Below, piece by piece: positions 5,726 through 64,000 of a stretch of DNA of 64,000 nucleotides (positions are counted from its first letter, which is position 1; each line of letters begins with the position of its first letter). The translations under genes were made by a program, and so were the position numbers. This DNA comes from Owenia fusiformis. Taxonomy: Eukaryota > Annelida > Polychaeta > Sabellida > Oweniidae. The DNA is taken from positions 11,063,278 through 11,127,277 of the forward strand of contig CAIIXF020000008.1 in the NCBI GenBank assembly GCA_903813345.2, written 5' to 3'. The notes under the pieces were generated by a model. It had not been told where the DNA came from. It did not search any database and was given only the letters and a program-made list of their open reading frames with translations.

Positions 5726-6282
5726 AAAACAAATTTTGGATGCAGTACTATTGAGTACTGACCATCTGTGCCCTTAATTCAAAGAAATATATGTTTGTCC
5801 ATTCTGAAGTTCACAGGTCCCTTTTAGGTGGTAATATTCTGATATCATGACAGTTTATTTCTTTATGCAAATATAACTTTATTACATTTCATTATAACAT
5901 GATTTATGCGTTCTTGTAGTTCAATGACATATCTTTTTTTGTATTATATTCGCCATGCCCATAGATCTGAAAACTTTGAGTCACTAAAATTTATTGTTAC
6001 CCGTATGTAATCTACACCCGGTAATTCAGTTTTTCTTCAATGCACTTAAAAGTGATCATTAATCCAAATATGAAACAGCAAAATTAATTACCTTTAACTA
6101 TCTGTGCACTTACTGAATGTTCTGTTATTAGGTTAATAGAAATATGTAAATCTGATCTTTAGTTCATCATACAATCTGCTAAATGAATCTATGTCGAGCG
6201 GAAACGCAGGCAATCTATAAGGATCAATCAATTTCAAAGGATTAGTATTTCAAGCATACTATCAAATTTGAGTTGCACTACA
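5726..6282. other. Non-coding, no feature recognised
   Basis: AT-rich spacer between the foldback element and the large minisatellite. No open frame, RNA gene or repeat recognised. Confidence 0.6.
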
Positions 6283-7878
6283 AGGCTTCTACTCATAGAG
6301 ATAGTACAGGCTGTGTGTTCTACAAAGGTACAACTCCTTTGGTAGGAACATTACAGGGCTATTACTCATAGAGATAGTACAGACTGTGTGTCCCACAAAG
6401 GTACAACTCCTTTGGTAGGAACATTACAGGGCTACTTCTCAGAGATTGTACAGGCTGTGTGTCCCACAAAGGTACAACTCCTTTGGTAGGAACATTACAG
6501 GGCTACTACTCATAGAGATAGTACAGACTGTGTGTCTCACAAAGGTACAACTCCTTTGGTAGGAACATTACAGGGCTACTACTCATAGAGATAGTACAGA
6601 ATGTGTGTCTCACAAAGGTACAACTCCTTTGGTAGGAACATTACAGGGCTACTTCTCAGAGATTGTACAGGCTGTGTGTCCCACAAAGGTACAACTCCTT
6701 TGGTAGGAACATTACAGGGCTACTACTCATAGAGATAGTACAGACTGTGTGTCTCACAAAGGTACAACTCCTTTGGTAGGAACATTACAGGGCTACTACT
6801 CATAGAGATAGTACAGACTGTGTGTCTCACAAAGGTACAACTCCTTTGGTAGGAACATTACAGGGCTACTTCTCAGAGATTGTACAGGCTGTGTGTCCCA
6901 CAAAGGTACAACTCCTTTGGTAGGAACATTACAGGGCTACTACTCATAGAGATAGTACAGACTGTGTGTCTCACAAAGGTACAACTCCTTTGGTAGGAAC
7001 ATTACAGGGCTACTTCTCAGAGATTGTACAGGCTGTGTGTTCCACAAAGGTACAACTCCTTTGGTAGGAACATTACAGGGCTACTACTCATAGAGATAGT
7101 ACAGACTGTGTGTCTCACAAAGGTACAATTCCTTTGGTAGGAACATTACAGGGCTACTACTCATAGAGATAGAACAGACTGTGTGTCTCACAAAGGTACA
7201 ACTCCTTTGGTAGGAACATTACAGGGCTACTTCTCAGAGATTGTACAGGCTGTGTGTCCCACAAAGGTACAACTCCTTTGGTAGGAACATTACAGGGCTA
7301 TTACTCATAGAGATAGTACAGGCTGTGTGTCTTACAAAGGTACAACTGCTTTGGTAGGAACATTACAGGGCTACTACTCATAGAGATACTACAGGCTGTG
7401 TGTTCCACAAAGGTACAACTCCTTTGGTAGGAACATTACAGGGCTACTACTCATAGAGATAGTACAGGCTGTGTGTCCCACAAAGGTACAACTCCTTTGG
7501 TAGGAACATTACAGGGCTATTACTCATAGAGATAGTACAGGCTGTGTGTCCCACAAAGGTACAACTCCTTTGGTAGGAACATTACAGGGCTATTACTCAT
7601 AGAGATAGTACAGGCTGTGTGTCCCACAAAGGTACAACTCCTTTGGTAGGAACATTACAGGGCTATTACTCATAGAGATAGTACAGGCTGTGTGTCCCAC
7701 AAAGGTACAACTCCTTAGGTAGGAACATTACAGGGCTACTACTCATAGAGATAGTACAGGCTGTGTGTCCCACAAAGGTACAACTCCTTAGGTAGGAACA
7801 TTACAGGGCTATTACTCATAGAGATAGTACAGGCTATGTGTCCCACAAAGGTACAACTCCTTTTGGTAGGAACATTGG
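6283..7878 (+). repeat. 71/73-bp minisatellite with higher-order structure
   Basis: About 22 near-identical head-to-tail units. Each contains CAAAGGTACAACTCCTTTG, an imperfect hairpin, then GGTAGGAACATTACAGGGCT. Two unit types are present: A (73 bp, ACTACTCATAGAGATAGTAC) and B (71 bp, ACTTCTCAGAGATTGTAC). In the left part they alternate mainly as A-A-B; from about 7300 all units are type A. A few units carry private changes (for example CCTTAGGTAGG near 7715 and 7788). The array ends exactly at a hAT insertion. It has no coding role. Confidence 0.95.
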
Positions 7879-24308: not shown

Positions 24309-25138
24309 ACTTATTTAAGGAGGCATATAGGTAAAATGCACACTTGTCGACTTTAAAGAGGCATAAAGCTAAAATGTTCACTTATCTAATAAAGGGGAAT
24401 ATAGCTGAAATTGTCACTTGTTTTGTATTCACTAGTCTAGTTAAAGAGGCATATAGCTAATATATTCAATTGTCTAGTTAAGGAGGCATATAGCTAATAT
24501 ATTCATTTGTCTAGTTAAGGAGGCATATAGCTAATATATTCATTTGTCTAGTTAAGGAGGCATATAGCTAATATATTCAATTGTCTAGTTAAGGAGGCAT
24601 ATAGCTAATATATTCATTTGTCTAGTTAAGGAGGCATATAGCTAATATATTCAATTGTCTAGTTAAGGAGGCATATAGCTAATATATTCACTTGTCTAGT
24701 TAAAGAGGCATATAGCTAATATATTCAATTGTCTAGTTAAGGAGGCATATAGCTAATATATTCAATTGTCTAGTTAAGGAGGCATATAGCTAATATATTC
24801 ACTTGTCTAGTTAAGGAGGCATATAGTTAATATATTCAGTTGTCTAGTTAAGGAGGCATATAGCCAATATATTCAATTGTCTAGTTAAGGAGGCATATAG
24901 CTAATATATTCAGTTGTCTAGTTAAAGAGGCATATAGCCAATATATTCACTTGTCTAGTTATAGAGGCATATAGCCAATATATTAACTTGTCTAGTTAAG
25001 GAGGAATATAGCTAATATATTCACTTGTCTTAAGTTAAAGAGGCATATAGCTAATATATTCACTTGTCTAGTTAAGGAGGCATATAGCCAATATATTCAC
25101 TTGTCTAGTTAAGGAGGCATATAGCTTGTTCATTTGTC
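24309..25138 (+). repeat. 37-bp minisatellite
   Basis: About 20 head-to-tail units built on TCTAGTTAAGGAGGCATATA then GCTAATATATTCA and ATTG or CTTG. Left units (24309-24440) are strongly diverged and the centre is uniform. Alternation of CAATTG, CATTTG and CACTTG endings marks sub-types. No coding role. Confidence 0.95.
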
Positions 25139-27765: not shown

Positions 27766-28997
27766 CGACAGGTTTTTAGTTATGCATGAATTGACAGGTA
27801 TTTTAGTTACCGTATTCTCTGTAATTACCACCCACTCTCTAATAAGCGCCCACCCCGCTTCACAAAGTTCAAGAAACATCGAGGAATCATAATAATCCAT
27901 AATGAATGAAGGAATTGTTCTTTATCGGCATTCAGAAATTTCAAAAGCTACTGCACAGATGTTCTGCGCATGTCAAGGTCGTGAACTTTCTGGTTTCTTT
28001 TTAATGTTTCTCGACTTTTACACGACTTTTGCACGAATAATGATGATCTCTCATCAAATTAGAAATAATGTATAACTTTAGATCGATATCCAGCAGTCTC
28101 TAGTAGAAATATTGAAGGTAATCGGCGATAATGACAAAGTGGGCGTGCCGGAAATAAATTAGACATAGACGGGTCTTCAACCACTGTCAATATTGTCTAA
28201 GCGATCTTTACCGTATTCTCTCCAATAACAGCACTTGTCATATTATTATAAAAATATGTTGAAGAAAATGCATTCTTGTCAAGAAAAATTGCCATACATG
28301 AAATTCCTCGGGATTTCTGATTTCTTTCATACATGGGCGCTTATTAGAATGGTCTAAATAATGTATTTTCAATTTTCTAAACGCCCTGGGCGCTAATTAC
28401 AGAGAATATGGTATATATGAATTGACAGGTATTTTAATTATACATGGATCATCAAGTATTCTAGTCATACATGTACCGATAGGTATTTGAGTCACATATG
28501 AATTGACAGGTATTATAGTCATACATGGATCAACAGGTATTCTAGTCATTCATCAATCAATAGGTATTTTTATCATATTTGAATTGACAGGTATTCTAGT
28601 CATACATGAATTGACAGGTATTCTAGTCATACATGAATCGATATATATTTTAGTCATATTTGAATTGACAGGTAATCTAGTCATCCATGAATCGATGGGT
28701 ATTTTAGTCATACATGAATTGAAAGGTATTTTAGTCATACCTGAATTGATAGGTATTCTAGTCATACATGAATTGTCAGCTATTTTAGTCATACATGAAT
28801 CAACAGGTATTCTAGTCATACATGAATTGACAGGTATTTTAGTCATATATGAATTGACGAGTAATTTAATCATACACGAATTGTTATTTTAGCCATACAT
28901 GAATTAACAGGTATTTTAGTCATCCATAAATTGACAGGTATTTTATACATGAATTGGTTATGTATGAATTGACAGGTAGTTTATACATATATGAATT
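27766..28997 (+). repeat. 27-bp minisatellite, split by an insertion
   Basis: Units are built on GAATTGACAGGTATTCTAGT then CATACAT (27 bp). About 1.5 units lie left of the insertion (27766-27809) and about 21 right of it (28414-28997). Because 27 is a multiple of three, both strands read through as artificial nine-residue repeats (ILVIHELTG on plus, MTRIPVNSC on minus), giving false open frames at 28503-28892 and 28553-28873. Confidence 0.95.
27810..28411. mobile_element. TA-flanked inverted-repeat element inside the minisatellite
   Basis: Left end CCGTATTCTCTGTAATTACC and right end TAATTACAGAGAATATGG are inverted copies. TA dinucleotides flank both sides (27808-27809, 28412-28413). Inside, TAAGCGCCCACC near 27843 is inverted as TGGGCGCTTATTA near 28336, and a third ACCGTATTCTCT lies at 28211. 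The interior has no transposase. TA targets indicate the Tc1/mariner-like mode of insertion. Confidence 0.85.
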
Positions 28998-51517: not shown

Positions 51518-54500
51518 GTTGTTTTGGCGAGTAGTCCTGATCTACAATGCGGTTTTTCTCGTGATCTCTTCATTCGCTGGTGTCAGAATAATAAAAACAC
51601 GATTATATTGACCAATAGGACTTTACCCGGAACTTTGGCTCGAGACCTCATCGACAATCCAAATAAACAGGAGATTACTCTTGAGGTAACTATAGTAACG
51701 TCACATTTTGACAATTATATATGTCATTTTAATAGTTACGCTTGATGAGTTATTTGATATGTTTTTTAATTAAGGATAGCATGTAGAGGATTTAGGCATG
51801 ATCGATTCTAAATCCTTTGCACCTGTATTGTATAAAGAAATGAGGATTTCTTCATTTCAAAAGAATAATCACTAGGCACAATTTTCCAATAAGTCTAAGC
51901 AAACATTTATACTTTATTATTGTCAGTCTTTTTGTTACAGTTCTCTATCCCTGAATTGGAAAATTTGTTCATTCTTCTTGGGACTTCAGGTCAGTTGTCT
52001 GACCCCCAACCAAGTAAAAATATATTTGCCCTTTAATAAAGTCCAACGAGGGAATTTAATATGAGCTTTAATTGAGAGAGGATGAAAAAGCCTTTTACAG
52101 TCAACCTCTTCTCTCTGTCTCGAAGCCTTTTAAATTTTCCCATTCTTCTGTGTCCCCCAATCTTTCATCGGAGTTCCTATTCCCTTCCATTTAAGCCCTT
52201 AAAATGATCCCTTTAGTTTTTTAATGTACATACAATTGATTCTTTTTAATAATAATAATATTTATTTCCTTTAAAGAATTTTGTAAGATGTTATTATTAC
52301 ATGAAGTGTAAAACCCCCTTTTGGGGATATTATCCACAAAGTAGGAAATTACAAAATGAATTGATCAAATCAAATCAAATCAAATTGATTACTGTACCAT
52401 TGTTTTGTGTGTAAATAACCAGAACCTGTAGAACATTATTTTAATTCAAGGTTTCTCGGAGGATCAAACTTGATGGCTTTGAATTGGATGAGTTTCTCAG
52501 AGAGGAGAAGGAAAAGAAACAAAAGTTGGAAAAGAAAAAGCTTGACGAATCAAGGTAAAAATACTGTTTTTATCATTCAATTCTGTATGGAGTCTCTCTT
52601 GGGGAGTCAGGGGCTTGTTGTGAGACTGTAAAAAACAAAGATAATCTGCTTACATGCATATCCTGAACAGTGCCGAGGATGAACAGTGCCCAGGATGAAC
52701 AGTGCCCAGGATTAACAATACCTATGCCTCCAGAGATAAGACTGGCATTTTGAGCATGTTTTTTAAAATGGCCATAAAATCTTGACCATTTTGATTGGAT
52801 CAATAAAACTTGAAAGAATGAAGAAACATTGAACAAGGTTCAATTTTTATTGGCTCACCCTGTATTTGATACAAATGACTTTTCATTCTAATTTTCAAGG
52901 GGCTAACATTTAGGAACCATGTAAGATAATATCGAAGGGGTTTACATATTTGATAACAAGGAACTATGAAAAGATGATATATCTAAGGGGTTTACATATT
53001 TGATAACAAGGAACTATGAAAAAGATAATATATCTAAGGGGTTTACATAATTGATAACAAGGAACTTCAATTTATGCATTTTGCTTACAGGGAACTACAT
53101 GAGGATGAATCTAGCAGTGACAGTGAGGAAGAAATGGAAGTTGACTCGGCATTTATGACATCTAAAGGAAAACATGATCTGATGTTGAAAACTGACAGTG
53201 TGAGTTCATCTCTTGAATGGGTCGTATTCAAGGAATACTGAGTCCCCCCCTTTTTGTATTGTCATATTGTAGTGTATAAAACAGTATGGTGGTATAGCTC
53301 AGGGCCATATTGATCTGGATGCAATCCATGTCTTAGATAAATACAGTGAAATAGATTTTTCTGTTTGTATTATCTCATAGTTGTCAAATCTGTATGATAA
53401 CATGCTATTATATACAAAATTTCAAATCTGCAGAAAAGGCTTATCGATATCTGCACTTGCTCATCCAGATTTATGATGTCAACTCTCGGGTAAATATGTT
53501 ATTACTCCAAATTATAGGATATCCTGTACATCTAAAATAACAAATTGCCTTTTGGGAAATTTACAAAGACAGACTTCTGAAGTGGTTCGGTACATTTGAA
53601 TGATTTGGTAGAAGAGAATACCTTAATATAATGAAAAACATAATTCTCCAAACCTGAAATTTTGGTCAGGCTATTTTAACCTCTTGACTACCCAGAGTGA
53701 TGAGATTTCTTGTCATCTAAGAAATGACCTTGAAACCTGAGTGACGAGAAAATCTGTCACAAAATTCTTCACTAAGTGCTCTAATTTGAACAATTTTCAT
53801 CCAATTTACTCAAAAATGTTTCTAAATGTGTAGAAATAATCTCTTTTGACTAATTTCACTAAATAGAGCATCGCCTGTTTTCCATGTATGTACAAGTAGT
53901 AAAATGACTAAAAGTAAAAAAATGAAAAATTCTCTGGTTTCAAACCAATTTTAGAGCCTTGAATTCAAAAGGTCAAGTAACCTCGGTCTCTTCTATTTCA
54001 TCAAAAAGCTTTTAGAGGATTCCACCTTTCAAAATGATGGTTGTATTTTTGGGTGACCTTGTCTTGTTTATATTGGCACTTTGTCTATGTCTTCTCTTTC
54101 TGTCAAATACAAAGTCATCTTTGGATGCATCCACTTTTCAAGTCATCTTCTCTCTCATTGCTTATGCCTCAGTCACATTTGATCTACGGCAATTGTATGG
54201 TGGCTGTAGCTTCCCAAAATCGAGAGAAACATGCAGCATGAAATATCGGGATAACCACTATGATGTAGATTTTCTGTATCCATTTTTCGAAGCTACGGCC
54301 ACTGATACGGCTGCCATAGGGCAAATGTGACAGAGGCTTAAGCCTTCATCTGTACATGTAGCCTTGATAATTTCAACCAACAGATAAATGACCCCCTATT
54401 TGTAATAATTCATACTATAGGACAATGGCTTGATATTTATGTCTTCTGCTTTACAGACTAAGTCTACAAAGGTTGGATTCTTCAAACAAGTTAAAAAATC

Positions 54501-57500: not shown

Positions 57501-58005
57501 TTAAGGCAGGGGTACAGGCAGAGTTTGCAGGTGGAGTTCTCATATGTAATGGCACAATTGCAATAAAAAAGGTAACTATCCATATCGTGATGAATGCATC
57601 TAACATTAAGAAATTACAGTTTGAAATTCTTAGAATGCACCATTTATAATGCAGATTTTTAAATATTTCCGGAGTGAACTCCTTTTTCGGGGCTCGCTTT
57701 GCTCAGACTGATGCAAATCAAATAAATCGCACCCCCTTGACATTTGCTGGCTATGTCGTATATATGTATATGACACACGACTCAATGAAACCTCTTCTAA
57801 GTTAATTATTTGTGAAATATGTTTTATGAACATACATTGTTTTGTGGCCAATATTCTTTCATTGATGAAGATAACATAATTAAATCAAAATATTGCTCTT
57901 TTATTTTTTCAGAATGAGGCTGGTAAAATCCAAATAGAGGGCGCTCTTAGTCACGATTACTACCAAGTCCGGGAACTCCTATATGAACAGTTTGCCATAG
58001 TCTGA
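51518..58005 (+). CDS. CPSF2: CPSF2 (CPSF100), C-terminal half, eleven exons, partial
   Basis: Cleavage and polyadenylation specificity factor subunit 2, the non-catalytic metallo-beta-lactamase partner of the CPSF3 endonuclease in nuclear pre-mRNA (and histone mRNA) 3'-end processing. Exons: 51518-51685, 52451-52554, 53091-53199, 54457-54563, 55076-55185, 55560-55702, 55990-56127, 56460-56578, 56998-57100, 57428-57571, 57913-58005 (TGA). All have AG/GT borders and reading phase carries through, giving about 444 residues, matching the second half of the roughly 780-residue animal protein. Recognition strings: [86 protein letters not shown] and the C-terminus [11 protein letters not shown]. 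An acidic Ser/Glu stretch lies in exon 53091. Exons for the N-terminal beta-lactamase fold were not found in the window. Confidence 0.95.
52922..53073 (+). repeat. 50-bp tandem repeat in a CPSF2 intron, three copies
   Basis: GGGGTTTACATATTTGATAA followed by CAAGGAACTATGAAAA recurs at 52937, 52987 and 53038. It ends 17 bp before the exon starting at 53091, so it lies in the region that usually holds the branch point. Confidence 0.9.
54165..54337. mobile_element. MITE in a CPSF2 intron, 58-bp inverted ends, TTA flanks
   Basis: The left end GCCTCAGTCACATTTGATCT ... GGTGGCTGTAGCTTCC is inverted at the right as GAAGCTACGGCCAC ... GCAAATGTGACAGAGGC. TTA occurs on both sides (54162-54164, 54338-54340). 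A 3-bp TTA target suits PIF/Harbinger-type elements. It explains the long open frame 54034-54330, which is not an exon. Confidence 0.75.
56377..56459 (+). repeat. TGTAT/TATTG simple repeat at a CPSF2 acceptor
   Basis: Imperfect TATTGTATGACAT and TATTGTATTACAC units run directly into the TTACAG acceptor of the exon at 56460. They replace a normal pyrimidine tract. Confidence 0.8.
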
Positions 58006-58157
58006 GAGTGTGGAATTTTACTATTCTGTTATTGAATGGACATGATTAATATAGGGGCAACATGCATCAAGATGTGTTCACAATTTAGGCATTTTTACCA
58101 ATACTATGGTTTGGGGGGGGGGGCTATGAGATCTGGAAGCTAGAGTCAAATAATCTG

Positions 58158-58163
58158 AATAAA
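58158..58163 (+). terminator. Candidate CPSF2 polyadenylation signal AATAAA
   Basis: First canonical AATAAA after the CPSF2 stop, 153 bp downstream, preceded by a long G run near 58112. Further AATAAA words occur near 58518, so the site in use is not certain. Confidence 0.45.
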
Positions 58164-58980
58164 TTGGTCTCTTGTGATCCTTTGATTACTCTTGTCACCT
58201 TGAAAACACTTCTGAACCTATTTGTATGTGTCAGAAGCTCTCAGTATTGGCGCAATGTAACTATATTCAAGTCGCCACACAATAGATGTCATATCAGAGC
58301 AACTATTAGGATTTGAGATAGTTAAGATGTGGAATTAGGAACTTCCTTATAAACTTGTATGACATGAAGTAGCTTTTTCATATTTAAAGCAAGGATTCCA
58401 TGTGTAAAGGAAGGATTCCAAATTCAAGAGCCAAGATTGTACATTATAAAGATATGAGTATTAATTATCAACTGGATCATAAGTAAGTAACTGAGAAGTG
58501 TTCTATAGGCATTTTTAAATAAATTCATAAGTCTGATATTATGATGTCATAATATGCATAATTCCAACAATGGACTTATGAATTTCTTACCAAATAATGC
58601 TTCAAAAATCACCCTGTGGTAATCCATTATCACTTTTCTAAATACATGTACGGAACTTCTGAAACATTTAAAATAGAATTTATCAATTCTATCTTGGACT
58701 TTAGAAAATATTTTAATAAATGAATTTTAAATGTCAAATGGTCTTATATTTCATTGTATTTTATTTGTATTTCATTGTATTTTATAATATTATACACTAT
58801 CAAGGAAAAAATAAAAAAAATATGTTTTTTAGAGCACTTTTCTATAGTAGTAACTCTGGTAACATATGATGTTATACTTGAGGTTTATACTGTTTCATAT
58901 AAAGAACAAATAGGAAAGTTTATGATTCAATTCAGGTCAGCCATCTTGAGTAGGTAATTGAGTCCCTGGTTACTGTTGAT
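58164..58980. other. Convergent intergenic region, no gene
   Basis: AT-rich 3' flanks of CPSF2 and TRMT6. TTTCATTGTATTTTAT repeats near 58751 could contain minus-strand AATAAA signals for TRMT6. The 58754-58957 open frame shows no domain. Confidence 0.5.
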
Positions 58981-59500
58981 GCAGATATTCTAATGTAGCA
59001 CTCTTGTCAATGTAGACTCATTTAATCCCTCATAACCATTGTGGCTGTTAGCAAATATCCCCCTGTAGCACTCTTGTCAATGTAGACTCATTTAATCCTT
59101 CATTACCATTGTAGCTGTTAGCAAATATCCCCCTGTAGCACTCATGTCAATGTAGACTCATTTAATCCTTCATTACCATTGTAGCTGTTAGCAAATATCC
59201 CCCTGTAGCACTCATGTCAATGTAGACTCATTTAATCACTCATTACCATTGTGGCTGTTAGCAAATATCCCCCTGTAGCACTCTTGTCAATGTAGACTCA
59301 TTTAATCCTTCATTACCATTGTAGCTGTTAGCAAATATCCCCCTGTAGCACTCATGTCAATGTAGACTCATTTAATCCCTCATTACCATTGTGGCTGTTA
59401 GCAAATATCCCCCTGAAGCACTCATGTCAATGTAGACTCCTTTAATCCCTCATAACCATTGTGGCTGTTAGCAAATATCCCCCTGTAGCACTCATGTTGA
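58981..59500 (-). repeat. 70-bp minisatellite derived from the TRMT6 3' coding end
   Basis: About 7.4 units with a 70-bp period (CCCTGTAGCACTC at 59061, 59131 and every 70 bp to 59481). On the minus strand each unit reads GGYLLTATMVM-x-D then a stop, the same frame as the genuine carboxyl end of TRMT6. The rightmost unit is the real exon (stop at 59442-59444); units to its left are extra copies beyond the stop. Unit differences include MRD, MKD and MSD before the stop. No acceptor site lies inside the unit, so the extra copies are probably 3' untranslated or flanking DNA. Confidence 0.9.
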
Positions 59501-62500
59501 TTAATGGATGTGTCCTGCCTGGTAGCACCTGCAACAAAATATTAACCTTAGAAAGCTATACCTAATTACAGTGAAACCTGTAAAAGTTAACACCTCTAGA
59601 AATGGAAAGAGAAAGTCCATGGTGGAACACTTCAGAATCCCATTTAGACCAACTATGTACAATGAATCTCTGTAAGTGGAAAACCTCATAAGTGGAACAC
59701 CTTTTGGAGATACCTTAATATACATCAAATCAAGGAGTATGACTGAATAGAAACTGAGTTGCAATCCAGAAGTCAAGAGTTATCGCACTTTCAGTCCAAT
59801 AACAGTATTTAGCATAGAGCTCACTGTGGGACAGTTATCTATGGTGATCACAATAATTCGTGTTTATGTACAAGTTCAGCTAAAAATGTGGAGCTTAACC
59901 CCATTGATGCAAGATTACCAATTACATTGCACAAGCCTAGTCTCTACCTGATGTTCCCTGAGCCAAGTCTCTGTCAACCTCAGATTCAACACTCCACCTC
60001 GACTCCTAAGTTTAGAGAAGCAGTCCATTAGAGGCTGAAAACCAAACATATATGAACATTAACACCGAGTATGATGTGCCACTGCCCTGGAATTCTATTT
60101 CTAAAGATTTTAAAGCAAATCTCTCCAAAGAAAGTGACACAGATTTTATAATGGTAAAATTCAATTCTTGAAAAGGGATTCATTTGTACTCGTACATGAT
60201 AATTGATAACTTAAAAGATAATCTAAACTAGTGGTCGGGAGACTTACCTCTTTGTACTGTGAGAACACTACAATAGGCCTAGATGGCGCCACATACTCAA
60301 TCAAATCCATCACAATAGGGGTTGGATGGAACTTTGATGCAACTATTAAACTGAAAAAACAATAAAGTGAAGAATTATTAGACATACGAGTACTTTTTAT
60401 AAACACACCTTGTAAAAAAAGACATTAACATGAAAAATGTCACCTCCTGCCATTTGATACATACACAGAACATCAGCTGCCCACTGATAATAATTATGAC
60501 TGGAAAATTAAACTTAATTCATCACTGCATAAATGTTACTTTTTAATGTAGTTCAACTACATAATTTCATACATAATACTAATTGTGTTAAGGTTTTTTG
60601 GGTTGATATTATAGATATTTTCATCATTATTTTCTGATTTTTGAACTCACCTATCAAAGTCACCAGCCTTGAGGATCTTTCTGGTCTCTTCCACCTTATT
60701 GCGCCACTCTGCCTTCTTCTCTGAGTGTTCCTCTTTCTGTAAAAACAACATTTAGAGTTTTGTCTTACAATACTAAATAAATATGTATGTGAGTGCATTG
60801 CAAGTGCCAAAATGGAAGACTAAAGAAAAGGGATTTGAGAACACAGCCTGATATATAGTAAGGAACAAACCCCCACTATCCCAAACTTTGAGGTGACAAT
60901 TAAACAAGTCTTACATCCCCCCACCAATTGGGATTTGAATGGAAGAGAGAGTTCAGCAAGGAACGAAGTGGACTGGGATAAAAAATATATTGTCTGGTTA
61001 TGCAAGTGTTTTGTTCAAGCAACTAAATTCAATTAACATTCCCTTAAAACAAAACCCTTCATTCTCAAACTCCTACTGAACAAACCAGAGTCATATAAAT
61101 TCAGTTTTCACAAAAAGGTATTAAAACAATGGAAACAAACCTCATAACGGAATCGCTTGCTCTTGTTGTCACCGTTTGTTGCTTTCTCTTTAGTCTCTTT
61201 TGTAACACCCTGTTCAGTATCTGTATTCTTTATAGCAACTATTGCTTCATTCTTTTCTGTAGTATCCCCTTTTGAATTGTCTTTAATAATTTCATTCTCA
61301 TTTGTTTTGTCTTTCCCAGATTCAATTCCTGTTTTGTCAGAATCATTTTCCATAGCAACATCACTTGCTGTTGCCATAGCAATGTCAGTAGATTTCTTCT
61401 CTATAGTAACAGTGTCCGTATTAATGGATTGTGGGTTTGTATCTGCTATATCTGTGTTTACTGTGTCTAGTTCATGAAGTGGGTAGTGGTGAAGAATGGC
61501 TAACTGTTCTTTGGTAAAGTTGAACACTTCTACTGCTGGCCTGTAAATAAATAAAAAAACATACATTCATATCATCATTCAAAGGAATTTGCATTATTTC
61601 TATCTATGATGAATCACATTTTGAAGTAGTTTTATGTGAACATTCCTACACACACATGTAAGGGACAAGAGCATCTGTTCGAACATGTAATTCAAATAAA
61701 TATGAATTTGTCAACTTTCAAATATGGAAGGAAAAAAGGCTGCGAGGAAAAAATATCCAAGAGCACAAGCAACTATAAGGAAAATAAATACCCCCAATAT
61801 TACAAATTACATGTATGATCTAATGCACAAGGAAAATATGTGGGACACTCCCTCAACATTACAGGAATCAGGAAACATGTTCTGAGGAAAAACCTCCCTG
61901 TGTTGTACCACAACATTTTTATGACATTTTTTGATATGTAATCTAAGTAGAAAAAAAGACTTCAGTTAAAAGACTAATCAATTTGGACATAAAAGTAGCA
62001 TAAATAATTTCAATTCAGTATTATCAATAGCCTTTCTACACACATGTGTAGAGGACACTACTCGAGTTTACCTTGATCCATGCACATCAGTCCCAGAGTA
62101 TACGCTTACGACACATCCCAGTCCAGAGAGACGTTCAAGCACAGCTCCTAATACCAAGCCCAGTGTGTTTTCCATGACGATGACGCGACTATTGGCACGA
62201 ACATTAGCTTGAGACAAAATCTGACCAAGGCTATCAATTCTTAGATTCCTGTGAACAAATGAAATGGTCTGAATGAGAAGATGGCAATTTGCACTCAGTG
62301 GGCCCAGGGCCAGCTCATGTATCATTGCCATGTTACTTAAGATATTTCATATTTATATTAGGTATTTGATCCGTCGAAACCTCAATAAAATACTTTGAAA
62401 TATAATTTTACAAGGCATTAACATGCAAAATGTCACCACCTGCCATTTGTTACAGATGCTGATTGCCGAATGCCAAATGCTGACAGCCAGACACAGTGCA

Positions 62501-63170: not shown

Positions 63171-64000
63171 GCACATGTTTAACCAGAACAACGGCAACGC
63201 CAAAGCGTAGCGAATCCCATCGAACAGAAATGGCTGGCATTTTTACAAACGAATAGCAAATATCATAAAACAACACACCAGAAAGGCCACCATTTTCAAA
63301 ATGGTTGCTCACTAGCCAAGTTGTCATCAGAAGAAATAATATGCTTTTCAGTAGCCACCTCTAAAATTTTTGAAAAATCGCACACGTATTTGTAAAATAA
63401 CACACATAAAAATGGTGGCCATTTTTCAAAATGGCCGACTACTCCCCAAAGTTTTATTAGACAATGTGCCATGCTTAAAGTATTCACATATCAAATATGA
63501 ACAAAATTGCTCCACTACTTTTCGAGTTATAGTAAAATACATTAAAATGGCGGCCATTTTTCAAAAAATTTTCAAAATGGCCGCCTTCTACCAAAAGTGT
63601 CATAGGACAGTGTGCCATGGTTATAGTATTCACATACCAAATATGAACAAAATCGCTCCACTACTTTTCAAGTTACAGCAAAAATCGTAAAATAACGAGT
63701 AAAGGCCGCCATTTTTCAAGATGGCTGCCATGTGCTTCTTTAATATCTACATTTGTAGCATTATTAATGTCCTTTATAATTTTTTTACATTTAAAACATA
63801 TTGATATAACAGTTTTACATATTGCACCTAAATTACTGTAAAATCAGCACTAAAATGGCCGCCATTTTGAAATGAGCAGCCATTTTGAAAATCGGCTTTC
63901 GAGCAGAACTTCTACCCCCATAAGGTATATGTGTACAAAATATGAACAAAATCGGGCCAACGGTATTTGAGTTATTGCCCGGACGGACGGACAGACGGAC
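63171..64000 (-). repeat. CCGTCC / ATGGCCGCC interspersed repeat, long copy
   Basis: Inverted relative to 39446-39968. It begins AACGGCAACGCCAAAGCGTA, contains at least five AAAATGG(C/T)(C/G)GCC blocks, the block ATCGGCTTTCGAGCAGAACT, and ends in GGACGGACGGACAGACGGAC at the window edge. Two internal sub-units (near 63410 and 63550), each with a GTGCCATG word and an ATATGAACAAAATTGCTCCA-like word, show it is internally duplicated. Open frames here (63118-63690) are by-products. It probably lies in a TRMT6 intron. Confidence 0.8.

Follow-up and report, generated by a model that had tools for sequence, protein, structure and literature searches.

Minisatellites are head-to-tail arrays of units of about 10-100 bp, present in several copies of high identity. 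In 3' UTR VNTRs such as that of SLC6A3, the units are tens of bases long, lie behind the stop codon, diverge little and carry variants common to several units. The units of Prdm9 are in-frame and translated. In the model of Haber and Louis (1998), a minisatellite is reportedly born between short direct repeats.

We analyzed a 64,000-base stretch of the Owenia fusiformis genome, referred to here as the window, in which an array of 70-bp units begins inside the last coding exon of TRMT6. The array is very probably a single-locus minisatellite derived from the gene end, with unit 1 serving as the true C-terminal exon and units 2-7 being neutral. Among the titles and abstract openings searched, we found no report of a minisatellite founded on the stop-codon segment of a gene, which is not proof of absence.

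The TRMT6 gene end and its array

Reading the minus strand from 62721 to 59442, we laid out seven TRMT6 exons with AG/GT splice ends, the last of which ends in a stop codon. The window does not reach the 5' part of the gene. The terminal exon has the acceptor attttgttgcag and an in-frame TAA, and is joined in phase to the exon at 60034-59948. The seven joined exons encode a 340-residue sequence matching TRM6 from human (5ccb_B, E 3.7e-64) and from yeast (5eqj_A, E 1.7e-15). Homology to the human protein includes the last exon (VLPGRTHPLINMSATGGYLLTATMV versus VLPDRSHPKLLMSGGGGYLLSGFTV), which aligns with residues 435-459 of the 497-residue human chain and with residues 436-455 of 488 in yeast. 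As a 28-residue query the last exon alone gave E values of only 0.027 and 0.85 against human and yeast, respectively, so the strong support for orthology comes from the joined protein. Past the aligned part the human chain continues for 38 residues and the protein here for three. In the yeast structure, the Rossmann domain spans residues 197-451 of 478 and residues 453-478 are unobserved (PMC5007650), suggesting that the residues encoded by the terminal exon are close to where the folded domain ends, though the chain numbering may be offset. Three exons in the genome match the Gcd10p domain, two of them above the cut-off, and all are at the TRMT6 locus; the open reading frame at 62068-62346 scores 51.7 bits against the Pfam cut-off of 27. 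A second TRMT6 gene was considered and rejected as there was no Gcd10p match elsewhere in the genome, a search that may miss weak matches.

Two other features of the gene were seen. The exon at 61141-61540 encodes a long polar stretch, at about query residues 118-190 of the joined protein, and the human TRM6 alignment breaks between its two parts there. Motifs resembling AAAATGGCGGCCATTTT recur by eye between TRMT6 exons at 63300-63900, perhaps as part of a dispersed repeat.

Tandem Repeats Finder places the array at 58994-59497 (score 910), and its period of 70 bp, 7.2 copies and 95% matches fall within the definition of a minisatellite in unit size, copies and identity. Seven full units lie in register on the minus strand, from 59497 down to 59008. 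Each differs from the consensus at one or two positions; units 3, 5, and 6 are identical to one another, and the mean pairwise difference among the seven is 4.2%. Seven near-identical 70-mers arranged head-to-tail are far beyond chance. The unit that starts at 59497 consists of the last 56 bases of the exon and 14 bases past the stop, that is, two nucleotides of an Asn codon, 17 codons, the stop codon and a 14-nucleotide spacer. Following unit 7 are 14 bases that form the start of an eighth unit, with 13 of the 14 as in unit 1. Tandem Repeats Finder, the unit register and the human TRM6 alignment together confirm the first-pass annotation in its reading of the TRMT6 terminal exon (59528-59442) as running into a seven-copy 70-bp array.

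Table 1. Features of the TRMT6 gene end and its array (positions in the window)
Feature	Positions	Strand	Basis
Penultimate TRMT6 exon (PLMDCFSKLRSRGGVLNLRLTETWLREHQ)	59948..60034	-	Splice ends and phase; TRM6 alignment
TRMT6 terminal coding exon, VLPGRTHPLINMSATGGYLLTATMVMRD then TAA	59442..59528	-	Splice acceptor, phase, human and yeast TRM6 alignment
Unit 1: TRMT6 gene end and 14 nt past the stop	59428..59497	-	Unit register
ATTAAA, poly(A)-signal-like hexamer overlapping the stop codon	59441..59446	-	Candidate, from sequence only
Units 2-7, 70 bp each, 3' of the stop codon, predicted 3' UTR	59008..59427	-	Tandem Repeats Finder and register
Start of an eighth unit	58994..59007	-	13 of 14 matches to unit 1
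Possible decayed rest of unit 8	58938..58993	-	Anchored gapped alignment; moderate evidence
AATAAA, first 3' of the array, candidate poly(A) signal	58760..58765	-	Candidate, from sequence only

Tandem arrays are error-prone in assembly, and the copy number here could be an artefact. We consider this highly improbable. The array is 504 bp long with several distinguishable units, both flanks are in the window and the array lies within a 39-Mb contig. Its existence is hardly in doubt, though the exact copy number might be.

A search of the 498-Mb genome with the 70-mer, in which common words were skipped and some stretches were read as N, returned seven matches, every one at the TRMT6 locus. A dispersed repeat or satellite family was rejected on this basis. 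No array copies were found upstream of the exon, where 124 of 300 shuffles (59600-59529) and 139 of 300 (60000-59529) scored as high. A pre-existing repeat that supplied the TRMT6 C-terminus has nothing found in its favor beyond the overlap itself, and is scarcely credible given that the C-terminus matches human and yeast TRM6 at the corresponding place and that the unit occurs nowhere else in the genome search. The alignments and the single location thus argue for the direction from gene end to array. They also bear out the earlier proposal that a minisatellite was born from conserved coding DNA, as unit 1 is the orthologous TRMT6 end and the unit is confined to one locus. In neither human nor yeast, the only two species matched, is the TRMT6 C-terminus unlike the repeat unit.

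Variation among units and the effect of unit loss

As 70 is not a multiple of three, successive copies fall in successive frames. Stops are present in all three forward frames across the array, and every unit has its own. If the gene is spliced as predicted, only unit 1 is therefore translated. A coding minisatellite with a translated repeat was rejected for the same two reasons. The first-pass annotation had every copy keeping the frame and its own stop, which holds inside each unit but not from one unit to the next. Splice-like sites are found within the units, TGCTACAG/G and ATG/GTAATG; by hand reading, the TGCTACAG/G acceptor joined to the penultimate exon would give four residues and then a stop.

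Among the seven full units, four variable sites are nonsynonymous, two are synonymous and one is in the spacer. Synonymous changes make up 22.9% of the possible single changes in the 51 coding bases, and the probability of two or fewer synonymous changes out of six is 0.86, with that of two or more being 0.42. This mix fits neutral drift, in a small sample. With only seven variable sites, weak selection on the copies may still be acting. Units 2-7 as clearly constrained coding units were rejected since the substitution mix is compatible with neutrality. The residues GGYLLTATMVM are unchanged in all seven units. Constraint on the copies is not supported, four of the six variable coding sites being nonsynonymous. 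Nor are the changes solely conservative, as put forward earlier: units 4 and 7 have K in place of M, and unit 4 also has S in place of R. Along units 3-7 the unit types run C-D-C-C-E, with D and E having one variant in common, an order that suggests block-wise exchange.

We modeled losses as the in-register removal of one to six units placing the join in turn at 71 points of the first unit. All 426 products keep the 28-codon exon and an intact GGYLLTATMVM core. They encode six distinct C-termini, which differ only by T/S, R/K/S, and M/K changes with at most two at once. The effect of array instability on the last residues, proposed earlier, is limited in this model, as the exon is always complete and no more than two amino acids change. 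The array should be fail-safe for the protein, whole units being lost without frameshift or truncation, because each unit brings its own coding end and stop. Whole-unit gains are probably likewise harmless. Events out of register could do harm. The chief effect of losing or gaining a unit would be on the length of the 3' UTR, by 70 bases per unit, if the array is transcribed. A potentially unstable array may in this way overlap a conserved gene without obvious danger to it. It is otherwise an unusual but minor feature.

It is also conceivable that the array serves as a reservoir of variant C-termini, from which conversion or unequal exchange would supply unit 1. The units do carry T/S, R/K/S, and M/K variants, and exchange in the model produces the six C-termini. 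The variants are few, however, and unit 1 encodes no amino-acid difference from the consensus, has at unit position 58 a spacer G found in no other unit, and has GTT in common with unit 7 only. From these features of unit 1 no recent conversion is visible, and we regard such a reservoir as very unlikely.

The 3' UTR, the far edge and the genomic background

All seven units have one ATTAAA, at 70-bp spacing, with the first overlapping the stop codon and the last beginning at 59026. Together with the AATAAA at 58765, they could make the array a functional 3' UTR module, in which repeated poly(A) signals or protein-binding sites set the ends or stability of the TRMT6 mRNA. This explanation appears unlikely. 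One hexamer present at the founding would simply be copied along with the unit. No RNA fold was clearly better than shuffles: out of 200 in each case, 198 fold at least as well as unit 1, 186 at least as well as unit 2, and 37 at least as well as units 2-3 together. There was also no Rfam match at the gathering threshold in 57600-60100, and arrays are common in the genome. A structured RNA element was rejected on the comparable folding of shuffles and the Rfam result. We saw no positive sign of array function, and the array presumably has none.

To determine the background we counted arrays with a period of at least 20, at least 2.5 copies and a score of at least 100, merging those that overlap. 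In 120,000 sampled bases there are 12, covering 5177 bases (4.3%) and found in eight of 12 pieces; as 10 of the 12 pieces come from the contig of the window, this is not a random sample of the genome. The window has nine, covering 4703 of its 64,000 bases. With minisatellites this common in the genome, an occasional overlap with a gene end would be expected. The longest array in the window, at 6279-7876, has 22 copies of a 73-bp unit with 94% matches. Others are at 24426-25126 (37-bp unit, 18.9 copies) and 28413-28945 (27-bp unit, 19.9 copies).

A plus-strand open reading frame at 57407-57649 matches the CPSF2 C-terminal family (CPSF100_C). As it faces the minus-strand TRMT6, the TRMT6 array lies between two convergent genes. 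An array of a 51-bp unit with 2.7 copies at 52929-53066 stops 24 bases short of what looks like the start of an exon at 53091 (acceptor tttgcttacag), probably one of the CPSF2 gene, so a second array in the window adjoins a likely exon.

Past the start of the eighth unit, the next 56 bases can be aligned, if gaps are allowed, with the remainder of the unit. Anchored in this manner, the alignment is equaled by 5 of 2000 shuffles and by 84 of 18,072 window pieces, which were taken every seven bases on both strands and hence overlap. An anchored ungapped prefix is equaled by 46 of 5000 shuffles. Unanchored tests are weaker, with 13 of 1000 (50 nt), 66 of 1000 (100 nt), and 301 of 1000 (301 nt) shuffles scoring as high. 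In a register control seven other registers (17-20) do better than the true one (16), the highest being at offsets 8-9; the eight listed as best are all at -5 to +13 of the true register and may be one alignment. The tests were selected post hoc with the sequence already seen. The evidence is mixed, and tips slightly towards a decayed eighth copy past the array. A further copy downstream of 58930 was rejected: 7 of 300 shuffles attain the local score there, but among 290 other pieces of the window 15 equal or exceed that alignment.

A decayed eighth copy suggests that the array may be older than its inner units look. If it is real, units would be homogenized inside the array and decay at its free edge, with the other edge held by selection on the gene. 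Taken further, unit 1, fixed in place by purifying selection on the gene end, would act as a clean master anchoring a long-lived, much older array that decays at its far edge and carries a ladder of ATTAAA poly(A) signals overlapping the stops; its long life would follow from the harmlessness of losing units. We consider this version of events unlikely. If relatives carry the array at different ages, they could be used to test whether an array stays homogeneous through selection at one of its edges.

Origin and comparison with known systems

We favor an origin of the minisatellite from the TRMT6 gene end. The founding segment, the last 17 codons with the stop and 14 bases, would have been duplicated in tandem, after which unequal exchange or replication slippage would have increased the copies to seven or more. 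The true C-terminal exon is still unit 1, presumably under selection. Units 2-7, behind the stop of unit 1, would be untranslated and free to vary neutrally, with exchange keeping them alike, and the array would be transcribed as 3' UTR. At its two ends the founding segment may have carried stretches alike at 13 of 14 bases. No other such 14-mer, with up to two mismatches, is found in the remaining 63,462 bases of the window. This is a clean case in which the founder of the minisatellite can be named, as the array was founded on conserved coding DNA whose orthologue is known.

The Haber and Louis model would expect such a similarity, 13 of 14 bases, between the ends of the founding segment. 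The 14 bases past unit 7 might just as well begin another copy, now decayed. The Prdm9 zinc-finger array is likewise built of tandem coding units in which unequal exchange can occur (PMC3890296). In contrast to Prdm9, every TRMT6 unit closes with a stop, and no translation is predicted for units 2-7. Like the SLC6A3 3' UTR VNTR, the TRMT6 array has tandem units behind a stop codon with low divergence and variants common to units. It differs from SLC6A3 in that the terminal codons and the stop are inside the TRMT6 unit, and the coding exon forms the first of the units.
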